The notes beneath the pieces are model-generated. The model saw only the letters and a program-made list of their open reading frames with translations. It did no database searches and was not told where the DNA came from. A DNA stretch of 45,826 nucleotides from a virus. The stretch spans positions 1 through 45,826 of the IMG/VR virus record IMGVR_UViG_3300017917_001873, one strand, 5' to 3'. The first letter of the stretch is position 1. Each line of letters opens with the position of its first letter. Positions 3,986 through 37,660 of the stretch are shown here, piece by piece. The translations under genes and the position numbers were made by a program.

Positions 3986-4208
3986 CTTGTTCGTATATAA
4001 ATTTAACATCCTTACCGGGACCAACTTCGCTAGGCATACCGCCATACTCTTTTACATACCATTCTATAGCAGCCACATACCAACCTTGGCTGTTATGTCT
4101 GCTGGCCTTGTTGAATTTATGTATGTTGTCATTGGTAGCTTCCATGGAGGCTATTACTCTGGCTGCTTCTAATTGTAGTTTTCTTAATGGTAGTTCAGAG
4201 ATATTCAT
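3978..4208 (-). CDS. Small hypothetical protein between two radical SAM genes
   Basis: 76 residues, joined to the upstream gene by ATGA and to the downstream gene by ATGAGTGA, so it is almost certainly co-translated with both. It contains an N-terminal amphipathic helix-like stretch rich in Leu, Arg and Ala, then a Trp/Tyr-rich middle (GWYVAAIEWYV), and ends acidic. There are no cysteines, signal peptide or membrane segment. I recognise no family. Given the context, it could be an accessory or peptide-recognition protein or a substrate for the adjacent radical SAM enzymes, but there is no direct sign of that: no leader/core division and no repeats. Confidence 0.7.
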   Translation of the reverse strand: MNISELPLRKLQLEAARVIASMEATNDNIHKFNKASRHNSQGWYVAAIEWYVKEYGGMPSEVGPGKDVKFIYEQDE

Positions 4209-5164
4209 GTATTATATTTACTTTTACTAGCCATCATGTCAGGCAGACACCAGCATGAATTGTAAGGACAAACCACACCATCATTTGGCAACCATTTTAT
4301 ATTGGATTCTTTCCAGTTACCAAAATCCTCATCGGTGCCTAGCATACAACCGCTGCCCCTGCGTATAGTGCCATTGGCGTCCAGAGTTATTTTGTCAACG
4401 CCAATAGCACAGTACCAATCCTTAAACCTGTTTTGTTCGTCTATTAAAATCTGACTGGTCACTGCCTGCAACTTTTTATCATTGTCATAGGTAAAACTTG
4501 GATTAAATATAAATTTCTTAGACTTAGACACACGCATATTAGCCTGCATGTAGTCTATTTGTGCCTGTGTGTATTGAACTCTACTATCAGCCACAGTCTG
4601 ATATCTATTATCGACAACTTTTATTTCCAAACTGGTGAATTCTTTTACGTGCTCTAGTATGTATTCCCTGGCATGAACAACCTTGTCCCAGGCATCAGGC
4701 CAGGCTAGAACTAGTATGGTCTTATAGTCATTGTCTAGTGCATTTATGCTCTCTACAAATTTCTCCACGCTCTTTACCTGCGTAGGATGATAGCTAAACA
4801 CTACTGATGTTATTTGCTTGCCTATTCTACGCCAATAATCTTCTGGCATTACACCATTGGTTATAAACTTTATATGACAGTCTGGGCTGTTTGTTTTTAT
4901 TATTTCCAGGGCCTCCGGGAGTTTTTTCCATATGGCTAGTTCGCCGCCCAGTAGAATATAATCCAAGCGTCTGTTCTTACCGTAGTGTGCCTGTAATTTC
5001 TTTGTGGTGTAGTCTATACTCTCAAGAGTTGGCCAACCGAAACTACCATCATGTGTTATAGTAGGACAATATTCACAGGCATAATTGCAGACATTGGTCA
5101 TAGTCCAATCTACAATGACCCAATTGGGATCTGCCTCTATGCGATTAAATGGTAAAGTTTTCAT
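4205..5164 (-). CDS. Radical SAM protein with C-terminal CxxxxCxC auxiliary region (type A, fused form)
   Basis: 319 residues. SAM cluster CNYACEYC is at 26-33. The GGEP loop is altered to LLGGELAIW. The C-terminal auxiliary cysteines are at about 252, 273, 299, 304 and 306, the last three as CPYNSCWC, on either side of a 'DANGTIRRGSGC' turn typical of SPASM/twitch regions. It is the intact counterpart of the split pair at 11276-11977 plus 10941-11279, whose cysteines line up one for one. Its start overlaps the end of the upstream gene by 20 bases. Expected cofactors are one radical-SAM 4Fe-4S and one auxiliary cluster. The substrate is unknown. Confidence 0.88.
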   Translation of the reverse strand: MKTLPFNRIEADPNWVIVDWTMTNVCNYACEYCPTITHDGSFGWPTLESIDYTTKKLQAHYGKNRRLDYILLGGELAIWKKLPEALEIIKTNSPDCHIKFITNGVMPEDYWRRIGKQITSVVFSYHPTQVKSVEKFVESINALDNDYKTILVLAWPDAWDKVVHAREYILEHVKEFTSLEIKVVDNRYQTVADSRVQYTQAQIDYMQANMRVSKSKKFIFNPSFTYDNDKKLQAVTSQILIDEQNRFKDWYCAIGVDKITLDANGTIRRGSGCMLGTDEDFGNWKESNIKWLPNDGVVCPYNSCWCLPDMMASKSKYNT

Positions 5165-9646: not shown

Positions 9647-10948
9647 TCATTTCCCCACAAATTTTTCTTTGCGTTTATCATCTAAAATTCTATTGAATTC
9701 TTCAAACTTTGCATAATTTTCTTCATGCTTGTTTGTTTTAATGCACTCGTCAATCCAATTAATTGCATCAAGAACATGGCGTCTGTTGTTAATCTCTAGA
9801 ATATTTCTTTCCTGCATTATTTCTTGCCGCGCTATTAATTTTTCTTTGGCTCGTTCTAATCGATCAATGGGTAGAACGTTTGCATGAAGGAAACTAGGCC
9901 ATTGTAATCTACTTGTGTGCCACATTATACCAAAGTCTTCTGTAACTGCGTCCAGTGTTTCCAAAAGATACTCTGCATTTAGTGCAGATATACAAGTGCT
10001 GGCCTTGATGTAATCCAGTCTATCACCCAATTCTGCTTTGACGTAGGCTATATTTTTCTTTATGTCAGCCCAGACTGCGCCGTGTCTAATATAGGCATTC
10101 AACTCGTCATATCCATCAATGCTGATAGTCAGTCTAACTGCCTTAAACTTTTTCCATAGATCAACAACATTGCGTCCTTTTTTAGCTTCTAAATCAGTCA
10201 AGTTGGTGCTGTATTTCAATATAACCTGGCTGGGATCTTTAATGCGCTCCAGCATGTTATAATGCAATGGATCCATCAGGGGTTCGCCCCCGGCAAATTC
10301 AAATTCTTTTATGTCATCAATGATCTCATACAGGTCTCTAACAAATTTTTCATGTGACTCGAACAAGTTCAAGACTGGCTTTCGTCTCATGTCATTTTCA
10401 TTGATGATTCCATTAATATAATCTTGCTCGCCCTGATCATATATCTGTTTAACACTGTCCCAATCCTGCATCCAGGGTGTACTATCCTTGGGCCAGCACA
10501 TACGACATTTTAAGTTACAGAGATTGCTTAGTTTAAATTCAACAATTGGTATGCTCCATGGTATTAGATCTGTTCTATAATACTCATCAACGATATGAGC
10601 ATACTCTGCTGTTCTTTCATAATTTTGGCTTTGACGCAGACTTATAATTCCTTTGTCTTCCATCTTCCAACAGGCATTACAATGTGTATCCCTGACACCA
10701 TTAATTAAATTGCTTCTTACTGTTTTATATTTTCTATGATTCCACAGATCACGCAAAGGAATATTTTGAATATCCCACATCCTGGTGCTACGGCAGCACA
10801 GTCTAAAATCACCATTGGTGGTTGTGCTAGTATGTATAAATGGCATGATGCAGAAGGTCTTATCATCTACCGAGAATCCAAAACGTTCTTTGAAAAGCTC
10901 ACTTGGTTTATAGTTTTTAAGATGTTTTTTGCCTATGCCCTCACTCAT
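9647..10948 (-). CDS. N-terminal-twitch radical SAM protein (type B, CC subtype)
   Basis: About 433 residues from ATG 10948, chosen over the TTG at 10954 because an AAGGA site sits about nine bases upstream and it makes the ATGAGTGA overlap seen at other boundaries. After a 30-residue lead come FCIMPF (C33), CC at 51-52 and C90/C93 (CNAC). The SAM motif CNLKCRMC is at 144-151 and FAGGEPLMD follows. The barrel is longer than in the 6331 product owing to an Arg/Glu-rich insert before the GGEP loop (DYINGIINENDMRRK region). It lies immediately downstream of the split type A pair. Confidence 0.88.
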   Translation of the reverse strand: MSEGIGKKHLKNYKPSELFKERFGFSVDDKTFCIMPFIHTSTTTNGDFRLCCRSTRMWDIQNIPLRDLWNHRKYKTVRSNLINGVRDTHCNACWKMEDKGIISLRQSQNYERTAEYAHIVDEYYRTDLIPWSIPIVEFKLSNLCNLKCRMCWPKDSTPWMQDWDSVKQIYDQGEQDYINGIINENDMRRKPVLNLFESHEKFVRDLYEIIDDIKEFEFAGGEPLMDPLHYNMLERIKDPSQVILKYSTNLTDLEAKKGRNVVDLWKKFKAVRLTISIDGYDELNAYIRHGAVWADIKKNIAYVKAELGDRLDYIKASTCISALNAEYLLETLDAVTEDFGIMWHTSRLQWPSFLHANVLPIDRLERAKEKLIARQEIMQERNILEINNRRHVLDAINWIDECIKTNKHEENYAKFEEFNRILDDKRKEKFVGK

Positions 10949-11279
10949 TGCCAATCCTTAATCTTTTAATATTATCTGGTTGTGCTTTACTTAACTGTAT
11001 ATCCGCCGCACAAGTACAATTTTCTTTTGTACAAACAATTGGTTCAGTGGGTATTTCAAAACCGTTATAAATTGTGCCCAACTTGCCACCAACTTTACAT
11101 ATTGCACGCCAAACATTGCCATCGTTGTCTATAGTTAGGTTTTGTACACCTGCCCAACATATCCAACCTTTAAACTTGTTGGTTTCGTTTGCCAACAAAT
11201 CGTTTACATTGCTTTCTTCACTGGTACCGTTTTCATAGTGAACTACGATGTTTGCCCAATTAGTTACTTTGTTAGTCAT
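10941..11279 (-). CDS. Detached C-terminal auxiliary-cluster half of a type A radical SAM enzyme
   Basis: 112 residues with cysteines at 41, 61, 83, 88 and 90. These match in order and nearly in spacing the five C-terminal cysteines of the fused protein at 4205 (252, 273, 299, 304, 306). Both share the pattern W.C..GV..[IL]T.D..G. and end CxxxxCxC. It overlaps the upstream radical-SAM core gene as ATGA. It therefore looks like the second half of one enzyme, made as a separate chain by translational coupling or joined to the first half by a -1 frameshift in the AAGAAGAAATGA region near 11280. It has no radical-SAM motif itself. Confidence 0.75.
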   Translation of the reverse strand: MTNKVTNWANIVVHYENGTSEESNVNDLLANETNKFKGWICWAGVQNLTIDNDGNVWRAICKVGGKLGTIYNGFEIPTEPIVCTKENCTCAADIQLSKAQPDNIKRLRIGNE

Positions 11280-11977
11280 TTCTTCTTATTAAGCATGAAA
11301 TCCAGTTCTTCTGGCGTGTAATAAGCATCCTTGCTTTTACCATGTGTTGTTTTCAACCCGCTCACTCCGGCTGCGGCCCATGTGCCTGTTGTGGGATCTA
11401 TTCTAGGACGAATTCTTCTAATTGCCCAATGTACATCATTTTGATTCATTATATCAATGATTTCATTGGCTTCGCGCATTTTACCCGGCAAGTACATTAG
11501 GTGTACGTGTAAATTTTGGTTTTTTCTTTCTTTAACTAGCTTATTTAATTCCACGATAGTATTAATAATCTTGTCATGGTAGGCGAACTCAAAATGGTAG
11601 CTGAAAATATAGTAATTTATATAGGGCAAACTGGCTTCATACTTGGCTAGTGGTACGCTTCCATTGGTGGTAACACTGATCTTGTTTATACCATTGTCCT
11701 TGATGATCTTCAGCAAATCGATAATCTTAGGGTGAGCAAAAGGTTCGCCACCTGTTAAACTTATTCTGCATTCTTTGCCCTGTGATTTTGCCACGGTTGC
11801 TATCTGTTTGACTGTATTTTCAATTACAGCCAAATCTAAATGAGGACTTTCTCTGTTATGTATATCGCTGCCGCAATAGCTACAATCATAATTGCATCTG
11901 CGACCAAGATTCCATTCTATTCTTAGCCAATTGTCCTTGGGTGCATGGTTATCTTCTACGGCAACAATTTTAGTCAT
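11276..11977 (-). CDS. Radical SAM core half of a split type A enzyme
   Basis: 233 residues. SAM cluster CNYDCSYC is at 28-35 and SLTGGEPF at about 74-80; VTTNGS and FSYHFEF follow. It stops at YTPEELDFMLNKKK. The equivalent region of the 4205 product (YTQAQIDYM) runs straight into its auxiliary domain, so the chain ends at the domain border. The missing auxiliary cysteines are in the next gene. Its start overlaps the double-module gene by 8 bases (ATGACTAA). A sequencing error near the lysine-rich end is possible, but the ATGA junction is like other genuine boundaries here. Confidence 0.82.
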   Translation of the reverse strand: MTKIVAVEDNHAPKDNWLRIEWNLGRRCNYDCSYCGSDIHNRESPHLDLAVIENTVKQIATVAKSQGKECRISLTGGEPFAHPKIIDLLKIIKDNGINKISVTTNGSVPLAKYEASLPYINYYIFSYHFEFAYHDKIINTIVELNKLVKERKNQNLHVHLMYLPGKMREANEIIDIMNQNDVHWAIRRIRPRIDPTTGTWAAAGVSGLKTTHGKSKDAYYTPEELDFMLNKKK

Positions 11978-14561
11978 TCCAATAATCCTTTAATTCAGGA
12001 ACGACGTCTAAGACGTTTTCGTCACGTAGTTTATCTAGCTCAATGGTGAAATCCTTAAAGGTTGGCCAGTGTTCTTTATACACAGCATCATCTTTTAAGT
12101 TTTTAACTAGCGTACTAAATTCTTTGATATCTTTTAATTCATTATAGGCTCTGTCACGAAGTTCTGCGGGCAGAACGAACGGGCTCAAATACATGGGTGC
12201 ATTGCAAATAGTGATAAACGCACCATCTGCACTGACATTTTTATATTTTTCTTCCCATGACTTTAATAAGAAATATAATTCACGCAGGTTTAGCAAATTA
12301 TAGGCCTGCATGGTAACGTTGAATCCCATGTGTACATTGTCTAGGTCATTGTACATGGCCAGTGTTTTTTCCATTTCATCAATGGTATATTTGCCACCTC
12401 TGATGTAGCTGTATAACTGGCCAGCACCTTCAATGCTAAACATTATCCTTACTTTTTTAAACTTGGATAGCGTATTCAATATTTTAGGATTTACAATAGT
12501 ACCATTGGTTGTATATTGTAACGTTATCTTTTCATGCAGTCCGTTATCAATTAACAACTCCAGGAATTCCACATGGTTCTTAGCCATCATGGGCTCACCG
12601 CCCTTGAAGTCTATCCTAGTTAGTTTTTTCAGATAGGGCAGTAAACTACTTAAATCGTCTAGGCCGTGTTGTCTTATTACTTGATTTTCAGGATTGCCTT
12701 CTTTCTTAAAATCTCTGCCGATTTTTCTACCTATTTCGGCTAATTTTAAGTCCTCCTCAAACCAACTATTGCTTGCCCAGCTGCCGCACATCCTGCATTT
12801 TAAATTGCATACATTACTTAGGTTAATATCCATCTGCGTCCAAAGCAAATCAGTCTGATCTGCTTTATAGACGTAGTCATCAGGAATATTTTTAGTAAAC
12901 TTATCTGTAAACCACTTGCGTCTGCTTTCGCCTATTTGTTCTTCTCTAGTCCAGCAACTACGGCAAGATTCTGGTTTTTTACCTTCTAAAAAATCCTGTC
13001 GCAGTTCTATCATCTTAGAGCTTCGTTTAAATTGTTCTGGAATATTTACTGCACCAACTTTGCCAATACTACCTTCCCACTGGCAACATGGTTTGATATT
13101 GCCATTCGCAGCTACCGCTAGGCCATGCCATGGCATAAAACAAAAATTATCAGGCAATTCTTCCTTGGTCTTTTTAACTTGTTCTACTTTATTTTCTTTG
13201 GTATTCTTATATAGATTAAAGTATGCTTCAAAGTCATTGTATATTTCCGGCGCCGCTTCTAGCAGACTGTCGCCTCGAATCTTATCAATCTCAGTGATAT
13301 ATCTTACAAATTCATAAGGACCGTATTGTGTGTTTTCTTTATCCGGTTCTTTTAATATAAAACCTTCTAATAGCTTTTTAATATCAAGCAAATATCTTGT
13401 TTCTGCTATAGGATTTTGTGCATCTGTTTGTTTAAAAAAGTCATAGGTATCTAAAAGATAGTTTACCTGATCAAGACTCTTTCGCAGTACATCTTTTGAT
13501 AACCACTGTACGTGCAGTGATTTTGGACCAATTAATATTCTGTGCTCAAAGCTGTGTCTATTTTTGCTGCTTACGCCGGGGTGCTGATTCCAACCATAAA
13601 ATTTTATTATCCATTCAATAAAATCTTTTATGTTGAGCGCATTCATGGACATAAATGTGCCATTGATGTTTAGTTTATACTGACCTTTTCTGGGCTTATC
13701 ACACCAATCTTTAATTAATTCTGCCTTCTTAACTATGCCATCCCAGTCTATTGCGCCTGCACTTCTAATATAGGAGAATAATTTACCAGTAGCATCAAGG
13801 CTTAGGTTAATATTAACATATTTGAATCCCTCTAGTGCTTCGAGGTGTTTTTCTGTTACAACACTGCCGTTGGTTGTAATCATTAATTCTATTTGCTTAT
13901 CCAGGCCGGCTGCTCTAAGCATACCCAAAAATTCCATGAACTGTGGTACAAGGAATGGTTCACCGCCTAGAATTTCTATTCGTCTTAGGTCTTTTCCGTT
14001 ATCTACTAGTTCTTGTAACTGTTCTGTATCCAAGGTATGCTTTGATCTTTTAAATGTATTGCTGGGTCGTTCGTAAACACTGCCTGCACCGCCTGGTGGC
14101 ATGCCCAGTTTCATGAGTTTTTCTTCGTCACCTATCCAGGCATTGCTATATGCACTGCTACACATCTTGCATTTAAAGTTGCATAGATTATTAAACGCAA
14201 TATCCAAATGCACAAGTTTATTACCTGTAAGATTGTTGTCCCAATCTATTTCTTCCCATCGATCCTCTACAATACCCAGAGTTTGCCAATGTACTCGTTT
14301 GCTGGTTACATTTCTATTTTCTTTTGTCTGACAATTTTGACAACCACGAGTCCAGATGCCATTTCTCTGTGCCCTGCGTAATTCCTGAAAGTTTTCATTG
14401 TCCCACTGCTCTATAATAGAACCCTGTGTGACATCGCCCATCTCCGCCTCACTCATGTGGCAACGAATCATCTTACCAGTGGCATGTATAGCAATGCTTG
14501 ATACTGGTAGCATGCAAATCGTTGGGCTTAGATTTTTATTTTTGTCGCCTAATTCACTCAT
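11970..14561 (-). CDS. Double N-terminal-twitch radical SAM protein, two complete modules in one chain
   Basis: 863 residues, twice the usual length. Module 1 has C16 (ICMLPV), C34 (IRCHMS), C74/C77, SAM motif CNFKCKMC at 127-134 and ILGGEPF near 198-203. Module 2 begins about 470 with FCFMPWHG (C474), CC at 492-493, C533/C536, SAM motif CNLKCRMC at 585-592 and FKGGEP. The joint is a Lys/Glu-rich linker at about 450-470. Module 1 belongs to the RCxMS subtype of 5145; module 2 belongs to the CC subtype. So two different enzymes have been fused rather than one duplicated. Four Fe-S clusters are predicted. It overlaps both neighbours by 8 bases. Confidence 0.92.
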   Translation of the reverse strand: MSELGDKNKNLSPTICMLPVSSIAIHATGKMIRCHMSEAEMGDVTQGSIIEQWDNENFQELRRAQRNGIWTRGCQNCQTKENRNVTSKRVHWQTLGIVEDRWEEIDWDNNLTGNKLVHLDIAFNNLCNFKCKMCSSAYSNAWIGDEEKLMKLGMPPGGAGSVYERPSNTFKRSKHTLDTEQLQELVDNGKDLRRIEILGGEPFLVPQFMEFLGMLRAAGLDKQIELMITTNGSVVTEKHLEALEGFKYVNINLSLDATGKLFSYIRSAGAIDWDGIVKKAELIKDWCDKPRKGQYKLNINGTFMSMNALNIKDFIEWIIKFYGWNQHPGVSSKNRHSFEHRILIGPKSLHVQWLSKDVLRKSLDQVNYLLDTYDFFKQTDAQNPIAETRYLLDIKKLLEGFILKEPDKENTQYGPYEFVRYITEIDKIRGDSLLEAAPEIYNDFEAYFNLYKNTKENKVEQVKKTKEELPDNFCFMPWHGLAVAANGNIKPCCQWEGSIGKVGAVNIPEQFKRSSKMIELRQDFLEGKKPESCRSCWTREEQIGESRRKWFTDKFTKNIPDDYVYKADQTDLLWTQMDINLSNVCNLKCRMCGSWASNSWFEEDLKLAEIGRKIGRDFKKEGNPENQVIRQHGLDDLSSLLPYLKKLTRIDFKGGEPMMAKNHVEFLELLIDNGLHEKITLQYTTNGTIVNPKILNTLSKFKKVRIMFSIEGAGQLYSYIRGGKYTIDEMEKTLAMYNDLDNVHMGFNVTMQAYNLLNLRELYFLLKSWEEKYKNVSADGAFITICNAPMYLSPFVLPAELRDRAYNELKDIKEFSTLVKNLKDDAVYKEHWPTFKDFTIELDKLRDENVLDVVPELKDYWND

Positions 14562-15840
14562 AATTTAATAGCTTTGCCATCTCCGGAAAGGTCTTAACAA
14601 AACTTTCATTTCGTTTTGCATCAACAAAGTTAATAGTGCTCTTGCGTTTTTCGTCGATGCTTTCGCTCCAGTCATCAATAAACATCATGAAATTAATTAT
14701 ATTATCAACTTGTGTTTCAAAGTTATTGTCAATAGTAGATCTATTATTCAACAGTATTTCTTTTATTTGTTCTTTAACTGATCTGTGTAGAGTTCTTACA
14801 TTAGAATAACCCTTGGGTGTAGTAACATAATGGGGGCTAAAATATTTAGACAGGCCCATGCTTGCTAGCTCTTTGACAAATTCATGAATAGTCACAATGT
14901 TGTATATGCTTATTGTAGCATCAATCATTGATTCATAGTTGGGTTTAGAGAAGAAATATGGTAATTTTGCTTTTACATCTGTCCAGTCTGCACCACTGCG
15001 TTGGTAATTGAATTTGTCACCAAAATCATCAATGCTGATGCTCCAGAATATCTTTTTAAATTTAGACAATAGTTGTTCTTGCTCTGGGGTAGGAAGTATT
15101 GTGCCATTTGTATTATACCATACAATAATGTTGCAGGCGTCAAACTTTTCATCAATGGCTTTCAACATCTCATAGTGTTCTTCAATCATCAAGGGTTCAC
15201 CGCCCATGAGGTGTATTATTTTAATATCATCAAAACCATCAATGTTTTTCCAAAAGTCTACATTGTCGATCCATTTGGCCTGTTGGTTATAGGCAAACTC
15301 AGGACTCTGTTTGAATTCGGGATAAGACGCCCTAGTTGTTTTCTGAAGTTCATAGGACTCTTTGAGCCACTTGGCACTGTTCCATAGACCGCAAATTCTG
15401 CAGGCTAGGTTACATCTATTGCCCGCTTTTATTTCTAGCCATACTAATTTTTGGCTGGGTGCAGCACCTTCCATTATTCTTTTTACTTCATTATAAACTT
15501 TCAATGACGAAGAATAAACATATCTGCCGCTGAATTTGTCATTATGATAGTCTCCCCAACATGGGTTGCAAGCAGGATGTTGCTCATTGTTTAAAAATGC
15601 CTGTCTAAACTTTACATGGGTAGGATGATTTATTATATCAATGACGGGCATGCCGTTAGAATTAAATGTTGTACCATCATCATTTTTTAATGGGTCACCT
15701 AGACAGCAGGGCCTAACATCTCCATTAGATTCTATGGCCACGTGGAAAAAGGGCATGGCACAAAAATTATTTGTGCTCAGCCAGTCGAATACTTGATTTT
15801 TTTCTGTTTCAGTGATAGTCACCGATCTAGAATTACTCAT
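14554..15840 (-). CDS. N-terminal-twitch radical SAM protein (type B, CC subtype)
   Basis: 428 residues. A 20-residue lead precedes FCAMPFFHVAIESNGD (C27), CC at 45-46, C91/C94 (CNPC), the SAM motif CNLACRIC at 143-150 and LMGGEPLMIEEHYEML. It shares with 15833 and 20720 the long insert before GGEP that ends in a Trp-rich 'W.N.D.W.NI' stretch, so these form a subgroup. ISIDDFGDKFNYQR replaces the SIDG/SVDA motif. It joins upstream and downstream genes by ATGAGTAA and ATGAGTGA overlaps, and ends LLNYE, like the 17292 product (KINYE). Confidence 0.9.
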   Translation of the reverse strand: MSNSRSVTITETEKNQVFDWLSTNNFCAMPFFHVAIESNGDVRPCCLGDPLKNDDGTTFNSNGMPVIDIINHPTHVKFRQAFLNNEQHPACNPCWGDYHNDKFSGRYVYSSSLKVYNEVKRIMEGAAPSQKLVWLEIKAGNRCNLACRICGLWNSAKWLKESYELQKTTRASYPEFKQSPEFAYNQQAKWIDNVDFWKNIDGFDDIKIIHLMGGEPLMIEEHYEMLKAIDEKFDACNIIVWYNTNGTILPTPEQEQLLSKFKKIFWSISIDDFGDKFNYQRSGADWTDVKAKLPYFFSKPNYESMIDATISIYNIVTIHEFVKELASMGLSKYFSPHYVTTPKGYSNVRTLHRSVKEQIKEILLNNRSTIDNNFETQVDNIINFMMFIDDWSESIDEKRKSTINFVDAKRNESFVKTFPEMAKLLNYE

Positions 15841-18554: not shown

Positions 18555-19444
18555 TTGAAATATCTTTCTGCTATTTTTTCTGCAAATTTTTTATGAATTT
18601 TTTCTGTAAAGTGAAACCCCACAGTAATTGTATCAGGTTCATCCACATCTATGCAATCTAACATGCTTAATTCTACTTGCTCTTTCATTTTTTCTGTAAA
18701 ATCTAACAAGTAATGTTTATGCTGCAAGAATAAGAATATATCAGTAAAGCCCTCGATGTCATAAATTGTTCTCTTAAAGAACACGCTATCAACAAAGATA
18801 AGTTTGGCATCTGTTATATTTTCTATAGCATTTTTAAACAAAAACAATTCGTAAATAAACCTTGTTTCTGATATATCTAAAGGTTCGTCAGACGCTATTA
18901 AAGCCTGGTGTTGGATATCACTGGGATCTGACAAAAGCCTACTGATTATTTTATATTTTTGCCGTTCCAAAAATTTATTTTGTGTATAATCTGGTTCTTC
19001 ATCCCATGCTGTTTCTTTAAAAGTAGATATCCGTGTTGGGCCTGTTAATTGAATTATTATATGAGTTACGTCGTAGCCCTTGCGTTTTAACATCATAAGA
19101 TCTTGCAAAGTTCTATAACATATTGCATACATACTACTACCGCTTTGGGATGAAAAGTTTAGAACAGGTTTATTTAATATGTTTGATAGAATAGAACTCC
19201 ATCGCATTTTTTTTCTATAGTCATAGCACTGTTCTAATTGTGCAGGGTTATTGTTATAAAAATCTATTTGTTTATTTAAAAATATATTTTGAACTTCAAA
19301 TAGTTTGGCCTGGTCGCCGTTGATAACATCCCTATGGCTATAATGTCGTTCAAAAAAAGGTAGCAAATGGTAGTCCAGATCAGAACCTTCTGTAAAACTG
19401 TCACCGTTAACGTAGATTACATCTTTACCTTGGGTCATAGTCAT
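18551..19444 (-). CDS. SGNH/GDSL-like hydrolase or acyltransferase
   Basis: About 298 residues from ATG 19444 (ATG 19438 is equally possible; the longer frame to 19459 lies further inside the upstream gene). Block I is VIYVNGDSFTEGSDLD with the nucleophilic Ser in GDSF. NFSSQSGSSMYA resembles the block II/III Gly-Asn region, and IIIQLTGPTRI is a core beta strand. The C-terminal His is in FHFTEKIH, but the usual DxxH Asp is not at -3, so the catalytic dyad is uncertain. The family includes O-acetyl esterases and acyltransferases acting on glycans. It sits between a detached auxiliary gene and a radical SAM gene. Confidence 0.72.
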   Translation of the reverse strand: MTMTQGKDVIYVNGDSFTEGSDLDYHLLPFFERHYSHRDVINGDQAKLFEVQNIFLNKQIDFYNNNPAQLEQCYDYRKKMRWSSILSNILNKPVLNFSSQSGSSMYAICYRTLQDLMMLKRKGYDVTHIIIQLTGPTRISTFKETAWDEEPDYTQNKFLERQKYKIISRLLSDPSDIQHQALIASDEPLDISETRFIYELFLFKNAIENITDAKLIFVDSVFFKRTIYDIEGFTDIFLFLQHKHYLLDFTEKMKEQVELSMLDCIDVDEPDTITVGFHFTEKIHKKFAEKIAERYFK

Positions 19445-20099
19445 CCCATTCAACAGCATTATTCATTTGAAATTCATAATCTTTCTTTAGTTTTTCAAAA
19501 TCGTCTACATGGTATCTTAGATTAAGATTGCCGCCGTGCGTGTTTATTGTGAACCTAACTGCATTGAGTTTGAATTTTACCACGCAATAAAGTTTTACGC
19601 CGCACTCTAACTTGATATTAATTCCTGGCTTCTCATAGGCACCTGCAAATATATCTTTGAGTTCTTGATGTGTCAATCTATATGTTAACACAAAATTGTC
19701 ATTGACCTTTAGTGATAGATCGTTTATGTCATATTTCTTATATGCATATAGTTTGAAACTATTAAAAAACGGTACCATTGGAAATTTATCATTGTTTGCG
19801 CTCATTTTTATATTCCCCACTAGATCTTGATTTAACGCTTTTTCCTTCTTCTCACATGTCCATATACATGCTTTTATAGGCTGATCGGATTCGATACTTT
19901 GTTCTATTCGTTTCCATGCTTCAGACTTAATAATTTGATCATATGTATAGTTTTTTAGATTTAATTGCAGATACAACTCTGGTCCAAGATAATTTAATAA
20001 CTCATTATTGCTGCTCAAATAACAGCAGGGCAAAAAGGTACTGTCGGCCTTGACAAAGAATATGTTATTTTCTTTTTTGCATTCTGGATCAAGTAGCAT
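19425..20099 (-). CDS. Detached auxiliary-cluster protein with extra C-terminal domain
   Basis: 224 residues. The first 90 match the 370-708 product: cysteines at 7, 25, 26, 78 and 82 in the pattern C...LPCC...CxxxC, with NYLG.ELY.QLN..NY between. Residues about 100-224 form a beta-rich extension (SFKLYAYKKYDINDLSLKV, later LYCVVKFKLNAVRFTINTH) that is absent from the left-hand copy. The partner radical-SAM core gene lies immediately upstream with an 11-base overlap. Gene order (core, then auxiliary) is the reverse of the left-hand pair. The role is probably the auxiliary subunit; the added domain may bind substrate. Confidence 0.65.
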   Translation of the reverse strand: MLLDPECKKENNIFFVKADSTFLPCCYLSSNNELLNYLGPELYLQLNLKNYTYDQIIKSEAWKRIEQSIESDQPIKACIWTCEKKEKALNQDLVGNIKMSANNDKFPMVPFFNSFKLYAYKKYDINDLSLKVNDNFVLTYRLTHQELKDIFAGAYEKPGINIKLECGVKLYCVVKFKLNAVRFTINTHGGNLNLRYHVDDFEKLKKDYEFQMNNAVEWDDYDPR

Positions 20100-20727
20100 T
20101 TATTTTAAACCTCATTAATTCATGATAGCAATCATCAAAACTTCTAGTAGGCTGCATACCCACTGGATAATCTCTGCCACTATCTACTAAGATGAAATCA
20201 TCAAACCCCAACTCTTTGCTTAGTTTGTATCCTTCAATGATGTCATTTTCATTGTATTTGAATATTATCCACTTCCATTGTACGTATGCCTTTGTCAGCG
20301 ATGTCATGGTTTTTATTCCCGCCTCCATGCTAGGCCAATCGGCATTTACTCTATATTGGTCCTTACCTGGCAGGCCATCTATACTAAAAATGAATATGTC
20401 GTTTTGATCAAAAAGGTCTGCGGTTTCCTGCCACCATGTTTGATTCCTATAACTACCATTGGTATTGATGCTTATTTTCTTGCCTGCAGATTTAATGATC
20501 TTAATTACATCATGGAATTTTGTATGATAAATTGGATCGCCATAACATCCGGATAGAATTATAGTTTTTGCAGGCGTTGCAACAACACGTTCAATAACAT
20601 GCAGGGGTACTTCTCCAAAATTCCATTTTTGCAAAGTTTCATTCTTGTCCTTGGTTCTAGCACAATCAGGACAATATAGAGTACATTTGCTTGTTATTTC
20701 TAGTTCTATATTCTTTGGCTCAATCAT
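20089..20727 (-). CDS. Radical SAM core protein, 'GDP' subtype, lacking its own auxiliary domain
   Basis: 212 residues. SAM cluster CTLYCPDC is at 15-22. The GGEP loop is replaced by LSGCYGDPIYH. WKWIIFKYNENDIIEGYKLS is nearly identical to a segment of the 705-1370 product, which is clearly a paralogue. SINTNGS and FSIDGLPGKDQYR are conserved barrel segments. Its start overlaps the upstream type B gene by ATGATTGA. No C-terminal auxiliary cysteines are present; these are in the next gene. Together the two should equal the fused protein encoded at 22054. Confidence 0.82.
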   Translation of the reverse strand: MIEPKNIELEITSKCTLYCPDCARTKDKNETLQKWNFGEVPLHVIERVVATPAKTIILSGCYGDPIYHTKFHDVIKIIKSAGKKISINTNGSYRNQTWWQETADLFDQNDIFIFSIDGLPGKDQYRVNADWPSMEAGIKTMTSLTKAYVQWKWIIFKYNENDIIEGYKLSKELGFDDFILVDSGRDYPVGMQPTRSFDDCYHELMRFKINAT

Positions 20728-29526: not shown

Positions 29527-30285
29527 TTAACGACGCTCTATATCTTCTTCCTCGCATCGTTCACCATATTGTATTTCAACTATCTTGCATGGAATATCAT
29601 AGGGATTGTATAATTGATGCCATGTATTAGTATCAATTTTAATCTGTTCATGCTGAGATAAATTGTTTTCTGTGAAGCCACCCTCGCCGTCGGGTAGAAG
29701 TACAACTCCATTTCCGCTACTAACAATCCAATACTCTGATCTTGCACCATGGCGTTGCATACTCAACCTGGATCCAGGGTTAACTGTTAATTCTTTTACT
29801 TTCATACCAGGTACTTCGTGTAATACACGGTAATAACCCCATGGGCGTTCTGTCTTGGGTGCTTTCCATTCCTCGAGAATCCAGCTTGAACTGTTCTTTT
29901 TATCCTCGCCGCCTACACCAAATACATATTTTAAATTAGGTGCCATGCATCTACGCATCTCTAATATATTTTTTCCTGTTCTGTCACCGCCGTTGGCAAA
30001 AATGACCTCAGCACCATTATAGTCAAACATTACAGAATTAATTGCCGCCACAGCACTATCGTCACTGTCATCAAAACTTATAACTTTGTCCACTGCTTTT
30101 AAATTGCCCACAACATCTGCTCGTTCCTGCCAGGTCATAAAACTACGTCCTTTTTTGCGGCGTAGCCAATCGTCACTGTTGATGCCTACAATTAATTTGT
30201 CACCAAGAGCTCTAGCGGCATTTATATAAGATATGTGCCCGCTATGTAATGGGTCAAAGCCCCCTGTAATTAAAACAACTTTCAT
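29527..30285 (-). CDS. Fusion of a cytidylyltransferase-like nucleotidyltransferase with a type II PMI cupin
   Basis: 252 residues, two domains. Residues 1 to about 130 are a nucleotidyltransferase: GGFDPLHSGHISY (HxGH at 14-17) and GINSDDWLRRKKGR, as in TagD/RfaE/GCT proteins that load CTP or ATP. Residues about 145-252 are a cupin like the C-terminal domain of ManC/type II phosphomannose isomerase: ERPWGYY, PGSRLSMQRHGARSEYWIV, TWHQLYNP and VEIQYGERCEEEDIERR, with His179, Glu184 and His223 as probable metal ligands. It likely helps make an activated sugar. ManC itself has a different N-terminal domain, so this combination is unusual. Confidence 0.85.
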   Translation of the reverse strand: MKVVLITGGFDPLHSGHISYINAARALGDKLIVGINSDDWLRRKKGRSFMTWQERADVVGNLKAVDKVISFDDSDDSAVAAINSVMFDYNGAEVIFANGGDRTGKNILEMRRCMAPNLKYVFGVGGEDKKNSSSWILEEWKAPKTERPWGYYRVLHEVPGMKVKELTVNPGSRLSMQRHGARSEYWIVSSGNGVVLLPDGEGGFTENNLSQHEQIKIDTNTWHQLYNPYDIPCKIVEIQYGERCEEEDIERR

Positions 30286-34321: not shown

Positions 34322-35382
34322 GTATTACCTGCAAACATATGTTCTGTTTGTATTACAAATAAATCTTTTCTATTTGTGTCTTCAATGGTTACAGACTTAT
34401 CATGCATATATTTTTTCCACTCAACTATTTTCTTAGGCCAGAATCTATCGTCATAGATAATATCGTGCACTCTGTGCCTATTGTGTATGATTTTGTCTTT
34501 TAAAGGCACGTACAAGTCTGAGATGTCATCTAGACTCATTAGGGATAATTTTTTAACTTCTGCTGCGAACATTTCAACTCTTTTGTCGAGATCTTTTTCT
34601 AGATCGAAACTATAATCAAATACTTCTTCAAATATTTTAAATCCTAATTCATCTCTTAGGTAATGATTAAATCCAGGCGAACCAAATACTATAAATGGCT
34701 TATAAAACCACATGGCCATGGTTGTCTTTTCTGTGACAAAGATTTGATCAGGGCTAGATTCTGCGATTACGCTAAATGCCGCATCATTATAAATTTTTGG
34801 TAGCCTATAACAATTGTATCTTCCCAGATCATCGTAAAAGTTATCACCAGGTATAACTATTTTTTTAGGTATAAAGTGTTTGAATGTAAATTGATCAACG
34901 CTTGGTAAGCTAACAGCATTCCATGATATTAGATTCTCTTCCTGGAATAACCCCAGCCTGGCGAATTCATCAATAATTTTACACCTGAACAGATGTGCTC
35001 TATGATTTAGTGAGCAAAATTTATATGTGAAACGCTTGGGCGTAAATTCAGTTGGTGGGGGCAAAGCAGTAGGATCAAATCGTTGTGTGTCTATAAAATG
35101 ATGTTTTGCTTGGTGGAAGAAATTAACTACATAGGGCTCGTATACTACCCTGTCTCGTTGCACACATTTATCTACATCAGGAGTTGCTACTAGTATGTAT
35201 AGTGTCGCGGCGGGATTGCTGTCCAGATATTCACTAAAAACAGCATACTCTGGCATATGATGCACGCCGATTTCTTCAATACATAACCATTCTATTATTT
35301 CTGGTCGTTGAGTGTACAACCTATTTCTTAGATCATTAATATCAAATGTCTGCCAGGTAAAAAATTGAAAATATTTAGACAT
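34318..35382 (-). CDS. Divergent 'EKxxKP' family glycosyltransferase-like protein
   Basis: 354 residues. FCSLNHRAHLFRCKI (about 122-136), VIAESSPDQIFVTEKTT (205-221) and WFYKPFIVFGSPGFNHYLRDELGFKIF correspond to the NR..HR, E.., EK and PFI.FG segments of the 30287 and 35375 proteins, in the same order. The KP after EK is shifted (TEKTTMAMWFYKP), so it is the most divergent of the three. Coupled upstream by an 8-base overlap (ATGTCTAA) and downstream by ATGA. Probably a glycan-building enzyme; the donor is unknown. Confidence 0.55.
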   Translation of the reverse strand: MSKYFQFFTWQTFDINDLRNRLYTQRPEIIEWLCIEEIGVHHMPEYAVFSEYLDSNPAATLYILVATPDVDKCVQRDRVVYEPYVVNFFHQAKHHFIDTQRFDPTALPPPTEFTPKRFTYKFCSLNHRAHLFRCKIIDEFARLGLFQEENLISWNAVSLPSVDQFTFKHFIPKKIVIPGDNFYDDLGRYNCYRLPKIYNDAAFSVIAESSPDQIFVTEKTTMAMWFYKPFIVFGSPGFNHYLRDELGFKIFEEVFDYSFDLEKDLDKRVEMFAAEVKKLSLMSLDDISDLYVPLKDKIIHNRHRVHDIIYDDRFWPKKIVEWKKYMHDKSVTIEDTNRKDLFVIQTEHMFAGNT

Positions 35383-37660
35383 TTTTCTTTTCTACCTGTT
35401 CTTTAATCCATGCGTAGGTGATACGTAATCCATTTTCCAAATCCTCACCAGGGGCCCAGCCAATAACATCATTAATAAGTTTATTATGACTGTTCCTGCC
35501 CATAACACCCAACGGTCCGTCCACATTTTTAATGTTGATTGTTTTGCCTGAAATGCTGGCGATCAATTTAACAAGTTCATTAATGCTTATCATTCGCTCG
35601 CTGCCCAGATTCAATGGTCTATCATAGTCGCTGGCCATGATCCTTTCAATGCCCTGTAAACATTCTTCAATGAACAAAAAGCTTCTTGTTTGTACGCCAG
35701 GTCCCCAGACTTCTACGGTTCCACCATCTTCGCACATGGCAACTTTGCGACATAGGGCTGCTGGTGCTTTTTCTTTACCGTTGGCCCAGCTGCCCAGCGG
35801 TCCAAATATATTATGGAATCTGGCAATGCGTGCACGTATGCCATGATTGCGTGCGAATGCCATGTAGACACGCTCGCTGAATAATTTTTCCCAGCCGTAT
35901 TCACTGTCAGGATCAGCAGGATATGCACTGTCTTCGCTTAGTAAGGGATTGTCTGGTTCTGTTTGATTTCTACTAGGATACATGCAGGCACTGCTGCTAT
36001 AGAATACTCTTTTAACACCCTTCTTGACCATTTCATGCAAGACGTTTAGATTAATTATTGCACTGTTATGCATTATGTCTGCATCATTGTCGCCAGTAAA
36101 AATATAACCTGCCCCGCCCATGTCTGCTGCCAACTGATATATTTCATATACATCTTCCGTGATTAATTTTGCAACATTCTGTGGGTCACGCAGATCCATG
36201 ATATGAAATTCATGCGCTTCTGTTGTACTGTATTCTGGATATTTTAAGTCGGCACCGATAACATAGTAGCCATCTTTTTTTAATTTTTCTGCAAGATGTG
36301 TTCCTATGAAACCACCTGCACCACATACTATAACCTTTTTCATTTCCCTGGCTCCTGTAACTTCTGCCCCATATTTATCGCAGAATTTTTGCATTTCTAT
36401 ATGTTTACGATTTCTCAAATGCTGGAAATTATATTCAACAATTTCCTTGACATTTTCTTGTAATAAAATCTTGTCATCATCTGATAGATTGTCAATTTCA
36501 CTGATAAGGTCCATTACTTTTTGCATACGCAATTTATAATTGGGTTCATCATCATAACTCTCGTCCCAGATATCACCAAATGTTTTAAAGCCCATGTCCC
36601 TTAGATACTTCAATGAATGCTGAGGTCCGATCATTATAAATGGCTGCTTAAAGATTATGGGCTTCATTGTTTTTTCAGTTATGTGTATCATCTCCACTTC
36701 AAAGTTTGTTTCTGATACGATGTGAACAAGACTCTCATCATAAAATTTTACTGTCTCTGCATAGACATCATCTTCCATGGGGAACTTATCAAACTCACCG
36801 TTGTCAAGTATTAATGGCAAACGTTGTTCTAGTTCTTTTATTTGTTCGTTTGACAGATTAATGTTTTCCCTGTTGGCAATTTCTCTGGCAATTTCAAACC
36901 AGGACGCATGACTACCGGACTGTTTGGCTGCAAAACTGATATGTGTCTTGTCTAATAAATTCCTTTCAAACAACCGTAGTAAAAAATCAAATCTATGCGG
37001 TCTGTAACGCCTATTGAAATTTAAGAAAGTTTTTTTCCTGGGCCCAATAACATATTTTCTGTCACACAATCTTTGATCATTTGCAACTTGTATTTGATCC
37101 AGCAAATAAATTCCTGCATACTCAAAGGTCATCTTGGGTTCAAGGCCGCGATGCAGGCAATATCTTTCGTAAATTTCTTGACCGTTGAGACAGTTACTTA
37201 GATATATGACTCTAGTTAAATCTATACCTTTATCTGCAAAATAAGATTGTATTTTTGTAATTGTGTAATCATCAACAAAGCTCTCATGATGATTCGTTAT
37301 TAGTATCCAGCCTTGGCGTCTATTAACGGCATCAATTACACTTTCATTAATGGGGACATTCTCAAATACACCAATGCCAGATTGGAACGCTGACGATTCA
37401 AAATTTCTTTTGAATGACATGGTTAATTCATATAAGAAGGGACCAGTGGTCATGCCCAGATCATAGACTGGTATACTGCGTGTAGGTACGTAATTTCTAT
37501 AAAAAGTTGCCACGGGGTTGACATCGTCTGTTGTTATATGTCGTTGCCAGTCTATTCTAGGCATGGCCTTGGCTAGATCGTACACATCAGGTATTTTTGT
37601 GTTAATTATAGGACCACGCGGTCCGATCCATTCGTATAAAAATTGTAACTCTTTAGACAT
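35375..37660 (-). CDS. Fusion of an 'EKxxKP' glycosyltransferase-like domain and GDP-mannose 3,5-epimerase-like domain
   Basis: 761 residues. Residues 1 to about 430 are the glycosyltransferase-like part: FLNFNRRYRPHRFDFL near 212-227, SETNFE at 316-321, ITEKTMKPIIFKQPFIMIGP at 327-346. From Met440 a complete extended SDR epimerase follows: KKVIVCGAGGFIG, LAADMGGAGYI, SSSACMYP, EYGWEK (catalytic Tyr588/Lys592), RFHNIFGPLG, GKEKAPAALCRK, QTRSFLFIEEC, LNLGSERM and VDGPLGVMGRNS. These motifs fit GDP-mannose 3,5-epimerase, which converts GDP-D-mannose to GDP-L-galactose/L-gulose. The fusion suggests the transferase uses the epimerised sugar directly. An internal start at Met440 could also give free epimerase. 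Confidence 0.88.
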   Translation of the reverse strand: MSKELQFLYEWIGPRGPIINTKIPDVYDLAKAMPRIDWQRHITTDDVNPVATFYRNYVPTRSIPVYDLGMTTGPFLYELTMSFKRNFESSAFQSGIGVFENVPINESVIDAVNRRQGWILITNHHESFVDDYTITKIQSYFADKGIDLTRVIYLSNCLNGQEIYERYCLHRGLEPKMTFEYAGIYLLDQIQVANDQRLCDRKYVIGPRKKTFLNFNRRYRPHRFDFLLRLFERNLLDKTHISFAAKQSGSHASWFEIAREIANRENINLSNEQIKELEQRLPLILDNGEFDKFPMEDDVYAETVKFYDESLVHIVSETNFEVEMIHITEKTMKPIIFKQPFIMIGPQHSLKYLRDMGFKTFGDIWDESYDDEPNYKLRMQKVMDLISEIDNLSDDDKILLQENVKEIVEYNFQHLRNRKHIEMQKFCDKYGAEVTGAREMKKVIVCGAGGFIGTHLAEKLKKDGYYVIGADLKYPEYSTTEAHEFHIMDLRDPQNVAKLITEDVYEIYQLAADMGGAGYIFTGDNDADIMHNSAIINLNVLHEMVKKGVKRVFYSSSACMYPSRNQTEPDNPLLSEDSAYPADPDSEYGWEKLFSERVYMAFARNHGIRARIARFHNIFGPLGSWANGKEKAPAALCRKVAMCEDGGTVEVWGPGVQTRSFLFIEECLQGIERIMASDYDRPLNLGSERMISINELVKLIASISGKTINIKNVDGPLGVMGRNSHNKLINDVIGWAPGEDLENGLRITYAWIKEQVEKKNV

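Follow-up and report, generated by a model that had tools for sequence, protein, structure and literature searches.

A fusion of two N-terminal-Twitch radical-SAM modules in marine T4-like phages

The window analysed here, a 45,826-nucleotide virus record from IMG/VR, contains an unusually built minus-strand gene, in which two radical-SAM modules follow each other in one open reading frame (Table 1). This raises the questions of whether the frame is a real fusion, from which enzymes it was made, and what two radical-SAM sites on one chain may do. The frame starts with ATG and has no internal stop. The family model NF033640 (N_Twi_rSAM; twitch domain-containing radical SAM protein), which describes one module and has a curated cut-off of 170 bits, matches the two halves near full length, with 248.2 bits (model positions 1–396 of 398) and 303.4 bits (2–398 of 398). 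A Pfam scan of the 863-residue protein gives Radical_SAM and SPASM-like stretches, each twice. Both modules have the layout of the family model, an N-terminal Twitch followed by the barrel and a C-terminal helical part, and GGEP (residues 199 and 654) and TTNG (residues 229 and 684) occur once in each. The first-pass annotation of this DNA had described a single uninterrupted chain with two complete radical-SAM modules, which the frame and the double family match bear out. The SAM motifs it gave, at residues 127–134 and 585–592, coincide exactly with the CxxxCxxC cysteines, and the two N-terminal subtypes it distinguished fit the cysteine list, with Arg-Cys at 33–34 in module 1 and Cys-Cys at 492–493 in module 2.

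Table 1. Features of the double-module protein and its two adjoining genes (window coordinates; residue numbers refer to the 863-residue protein)
Feature	Position	Strand	Basis
Double N_Twi radical-SAM protein, 863 aa	11970..14561	-	ORF; two NF033640 domains, 541.5 bits for the whole protein
Module 1 N-terminal Twitch, residues 16-77	14331..14516	-	PF13186 at 16-78
Module 1 presumed auxiliary-cluster Cys 16, 34, 74, 77		-	Four columns invariant in 8 window modules
Module 1 radical-SAM barrel, residues 118-342	13536..14210	-	PF04055 at 124-284
Module 1 CxxxCxxC (CNFKCKMC), residues 127-134	14160..14183	-	Cys positions
Linker, Lys/Glu-rich, residues 447-472	13146..13223	-	Low pLDDT at 455-467; junction comparison
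Module 2 N-terminal Twitch, residues 474-536	12954..13142	-	Second PF13186 stretch; TIGR04085 at 476-540
Module 2 Twitch Cys 474, 492/493, 533, 536		-	Cys conservation
Module 2 radical-SAM barrel, residues 576-751	12309..12836	-	Second PF04055 stretch; module 2 model
Module 2 CxxxCxxC (CNLKCRMC), residues 585-592	12786..12809	-	Cys positions
Upstream single-module N_Twi enzyme	14554..15840	-	8-nt overlap with the fusion
Downstream radical-SAM core protein, 233 aa	11276..11977	-	8-nt overlap with the fusion

The fused frame is also found in other viral contigs, those of loci L009 and L014 (849 aa), L010, L011, L012, L013 and L016 (850 aa) and L027 (840 aa). These relatives come from other metagenomes and are 66–70% identical to the window protein, and the gene order on both sides of the fusion is the same in their contigs. 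The fusion is real and recurrent; as the frame recurs in independent phage contigs, with the same flanking synteny, a sequencing or assembly error that joined two genes can be dismissed. Locus L120 (positions 3–1892) apparently carries the same fusion, cut at the locus end, since its contig is that of L009. A 916-aa open frame in the L036 contig was considered as a second, independent fusion and rejected, with stops lying between two genes. The viral BFVD entry A0A1B1IX00 (974 aa), of which 812 columns align with the full-length model, is possibly also a double-module protein. Among 392 distinct N_Twi-like ORFs from all fetched loci, a sample biased towards relatives of the window, double proteins make up 4 of 319 clusters at 90% identity, and all four are orthologous.

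Two loci carry a split version in the same syntenic place. In L015, separate genes for products of 437 and 391 aa overlap by 8 nt (ATGAATGA), the second gene lying in another frame with AAAGGAG upstream of it; in L039, the products are 558 and 386 aa long and the overlap is 4 nt. The unfused module 1 of L039 (4319–5995) has about 130 extra C-terminal residues of unknown kind. The fusion ORF itself overlaps each of its neighbouring genes by 8 nt. Orthologues of module 1 were found only beside module 2, namely in L015, L039 and the fused lineages. The reverse does not hold for module 2, which in eight further contigs, most of them fragments, is accompanied only by module 1 paralogues, of about 33% identity or less. 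No bacterial relatives of module 2 came to light when the genome collection was searched with the chosen sequence patterns.

That two different enzymes were fused, as first annotated, is upheld by the separate orthologous clades into which the modules fall and by the relatives that carry them as adjacent separate genes. The modules are not each other's closest relatives and share 31% identity, and an internal duplication is therefore rejected. The annotation had further matched module 1 to the product of window gene 5145 and module 2 to that of gene 6331, and here only the first match stands in full. In BLAST searches within the window, the 5145 product is nearest to module 1 (212 bits), and an 87-row tree joins it to module 1 and its orthologues (support 100, in a quick tree with SH-aLRT support only and with a long-branch warning for 5145). 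Module 2 has the 6331 product as its best match within the window (159 bits, narrowly ahead of 5145 at 147 bits), but the tree places module 2 with its own orthologues and the 6331 product in another clade. Tree and synteny rule out both genes as sources; orthologues of the two modules adjoin as separate genes in L015 and L039, so neither 5145 nor 6331 is likely to have been the origin. The Lys/Glu linker that had been noted between the modules is present in the window copy and absent from the junctions of relatives: the window linker is about 13–15 residues longer than theirs, and its richness in Lys and Glu is not conserved. It also holds a TTG codon with AAGGA upstream, a candidate internal start for free module 2; no equivalent was seen in L009, L010 or L027.

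Should the split genes represent the ancestral state, two coupled neighbours would have been joined by stop loss and a net indel, the latter being needed because the second gene of L015 lies in another frame. In the tree of the neighbouring gene 15833, split L015 is nested among the window, L009 and L010, and fused L027 lies outside; a clade of fused phages is rejected by this gene (p-AU 0.00013) and by gene 17292 (p 0.016), and not rejected by gene 9647 (p 0.08). For module 2, the window falls together with split L015 (94/93), but a single clade of the fused copies is not rejected with confidence (p-AU 0.054); for fused module 1, the clade has a support of only 85/95. With these last two values, clean separate histories for the two modules were not retained. 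Module 1 of the window is 60–62% identical to that of L015 and 73% to that of L027, though L015 is closer elsewhere. An exchange of fused and split alleles seems to have taken place, or else the uptake of a foreign module 1 by L015, since the neighbouring genes place this split phage inside the fused group. L015 is a single contig, so that some chance of a sequence error is left, but both of its genes have ordinary starts and ends. Between some relatives, the block 11970–15840 (the 14554 gene and modules 1 and 2) has diverged far more than nearby genes, with 63–64% against 87–94% identity for L009 and L015, which suggests allele exchange or diversifying selection acting on the block. For L009 versus L010, dN/dS is 0.06 in module 1 and 0.11 in module 2, rough figures, as synonymous changes are near saturation (pS about 0.7). 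The near-identical L010 and L011 differ by 12 synonymous and 4 non-synonymous changes in module 1 and by 4 and 8, respectively, in module 2.

The joining may have been neutral, with the overlapping stop lost and an indel gained, so that two proteins already paired and co-translated became one and the chemistry did not change. Translational coupling is suggested by the short overlaps of the split genes, the fused copies differ in the length and sequence of their linkers, and the nesting of L015 among fused phages, with alleles that seem exchanged, fits this explanation as well. On the other hand, the fused frame has been held in diverged lineages, and stop loss alone would not have sufficed to create it. 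We consider a neutral fusion rather unlikely and prefer, tentatively, a genuine bifunctional enzyme. The fusion is not essential to function, as split homologues persist in close relatives.

An AlphaFold model of the whole chain, made from 16 rows, has a pLDDT of 78.5 and a pTM of 0.53. Barrel strands and helices are present in each half, in agreement with the two barrels of the first annotation; in module 1 the strands are at residues 118, 194, 225, 248, 294 and 337. The junction is of low confidence in this model and the relative placement of the modules is uncertain. Module 2 modelled alone, from 60 rows, reaches a pLDDT of 95.5 and a pTM of 0.92. Foldseek comparison of module 2 with solved structures returns the radical-SAM enzymes SkfB, anSME, BlsE, viperin, SpeY and MoaA, and among the 50 matches listed no solved structure exceeds a TM of 0.41 of the module 2 length. 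As these values stay at or below 0.41, the N-terminal Twitch arrangement, as modelled, seems to lack a close solved counterpart.

The fusion might instead serve electron sharing or stability: through the tether, a cluster of one module could re-reduce the radical-SAM cluster of its partner, regardless of what either module acts on. Experiments have been reported in which the radical-SAM enzyme PapB passes electrons to another, unrelated one, QueE (PMC10470005), and an unconserved linker, modelled with low confidence, would agree with such a role. The existence of both modules unfused in L015 and L039 speaks against it, as does the lack of any direct sign of inter-module electron transfer in the sequence. 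We regard this explanation as unlikely, and the bifunctional enzyme remains our preferred reading.

In an alignment of the eight modules encoded in the window, the invariant residues include Cys5, Pro8, Cys23, Cys62 and Cys65 of the Twitch, Cys116, Cys120 and Cys123 of the radical-SAM cluster, GGE, the Asn of TNG and some other positions (alignment numbering). In a family alignment of 60 rows, Cys64, Cys67, Cys116, Cys120, Cys123, GGEP and Asn217 are invariant, with Cys5 and Cys23 conserved in at least 90%. The positions invariant in the two alignments are present in both modules of the fusion. Each module would thus ligate the SAM cluster with three cysteines and one auxiliary cluster with four. 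Because both modules keep this set, the four Fe-S clusters predicted in the first-pass annotation are supported, as two putative [4Fe-4S] sites per module. After the barrel, no conserved cysteine was seen in either alignment. Scanning the protein with Pfam gave no PqqD- or RRE-type domain, such as RiPP maturases use to recognise their precursors. The modules are not of the SPASM type, with its C-terminal SPASM domain and two auxiliary clusters: their PF13186-like cysteines precede the barrel. One module could, as in pseudo-enzyme pairs, have lost catalysis and serve as a scaffold or in substrate recognition, and for module 1 the replacement of Cys-Cys by Arg-Cys and the few orthologues found might be taken to point that way. 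However, the first Cys of the Cys-Cys pair falls outside the conserved columns, so Arg-Cys is no defect, and neither module has lost CxxxCxxC, GGEP, TTNG, the four Twitch cysteines or any of the other invariant positions. A dead module is thus very improbable.

Two radical-SAM domains on one polypeptide have a precedent in FO synthase FbiC (CofG-CofH), whose two complete domains are separate in some organisms and fused in others (PMC11917521). The phage protein resembles FbiC, by analogy only, in being split in L015 and L039 and fused in the window, L009, L010 and L027; unlike in FbiC, CofG and CofH are not among the best 25 of 34 NCBIfam matches, listed down to about 25 bits. Its whole-model matches above the cut-off assign both modules to the NF033640 family, the model of which is itself single-module. 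A barrel with one auxiliary [4Fe-4S] cluster, as predicted for each module, is also the arrangement of the dehydrogenases BtrN and SpeY, the latter one of the fold matches; their Twitch is C-terminal to the barrel, in contrast to the N-terminal one here. In the aminocyclitol dehydrogenase BtrN, four Cys ligate the auxiliary cluster of the Twitch, and the reaction it serves is a two-electron oxidation (PMC9012708). Among isolated phages, the best matches are radical-SAM proteins (phrog_14086 type) of KVP40-like Vibrio phages, which match mainly module 2, at only about 22–26% identity, and none of which spans both modules in full. In the available parts of the literature, we found no description of fused radical-SAM modules in marine T4-like phages.

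The window as a whole is rich in such enzymes: ten ORFs together encode eleven full NF033640 modules, and there are several weaker radical-SAM matches besides. The upstream single-module gene keeps its place in the contigs of L009, L010, L015, L027 and L039, and the downstream gene directly follows the fusion in those of L009, L010, L015 and L027. The downstream radical-SAM core and a separate 112-aa Cys-rich part (10941–11279) resemble the halves of a 319-aa protein at 4205–5164; the contigs of L009, L010, L015, L027 and L039 all keep this split pair (10941–11977). At 346–1370 and 19425–20727 there are paralogous pairs of a small stand-alone Cys-containing (SPASM-like) protein and a short radical-SAM core. 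Other neighbours encode an NDP-sugar epimerase, a cytidylyltransferase/cupin, a NodU-type carbamoyltransferase, an aspartyl/asparaginyl hydroxylase, a B12-binding radical-SAM protein, further radical-SAM enzymes and a GDSL-like hydrolase (below the Pfam cut-off). Composite genes also occur elsewhere in the window: at 35375–37660 an NAD-dependent epimerase is fused to an N-terminal part without Pfam match, and at 29527–30285 a cytidylyltransferase-like domain is fused to a mannose-6-phosphate-isomerase-type cupin.

No structural genes were seen in the window itself; lacking these hallmarks, its T4-like placement rests on its relatives, T4 Gp23 and a gp21-type protease being present in the contigs of L010 and L009. 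The PF11649 neck protein, sought in order to locate the host-recognition cluster between VrlC and gp14, gave no match anywhere, controls included. A-type Fe-S carriers are encoded in the contigs of L010, L034 and L036, and IscU in L034 and L036; the large contigs of the latter two have 19 and 25 N_Twi matches. Pelagimyophages have radical-SAM cassettes in a host-recognition cluster, a variable region with glycosyl-type genes, the glycosyltransferases of which are thought to alter the host O-chain (PMC7029224), and the T4-like marine genome TARA_ERS488813_N000010 has 12 radical-SAM genes and an A-type Fe-S carrier (PMC5332604). These phages have radical-SAM genes in common with the relatives studied here, some of which also have Fe-S assembly genes. 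The setting is a radical-SAM-rich, glycosylation-like region of marine T4-like phages, and such a setting is already in the literature.

Our favoured reading, held tentatively and at somewhat less than an even chance, is that the protein is a genuine bifunctional enzyme that arose by fusion of adjacent paralogous genes and catalyses two related radical steps, probably on a host-surface glycan. Two adjacent, probably translationally coupled N-terminal-Twitch radical-SAM genes would have become one frame in a marine T4-like phage lineage. Judging by motifs and fold, each module would bind SAM on a three-cysteine [4Fe-4S] cluster and form a 5'-deoxyadenosyl radical; by analogy with BtrN, the Twitch auxiliary cluster may accept the second electron released in a dehydrogenation or a comparable oxidation. 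From the glycan-type neighbours, the phage radical-SAM cassettes and the BtrN Twitch, we infer that one scaffold, probably a sugar or glycan of the host surface, undergoes two related oxidative radical steps, which the fusion would keep close together and in a 1:1 ratio. That the two sites act consecutively on one substrate, as the first-pass annotation proposed, is a plausible hypothesis. The best guess is thus that the protein tailors a surface glycan or a similar scaffold as a bifunctional enzyme, the glycan class being suggested by neighbouring genes only. A peptide substrate is also possible, because the RiPP maturase SkfB is among the nearest solved folds of module 2. That the two sites successively modify one surface-glycan (or peptide) scaffold and in addition pass electrons between the modules is a bolder combination, which we think doubtful.

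No biochemistry of any N_Twi member was found in the literature, and we know of no characterised counterpart of a four-cluster enzyme of this kind. If the bolder combination is true, the phage protein would be a four-cluster viral bifunctional enzyme and would give a first function for the N-terminal-Twitch enzymes. That two members of this uncharacterised family are fused hints at cooperation between both enzymes. It narrows the search for the role of the large radical-SAM arrays in marine T4-like phages, because one polypeptide can be expressed without guessing at pairs, and the natural split orthologues are ready controls for channelling and electron sharing.
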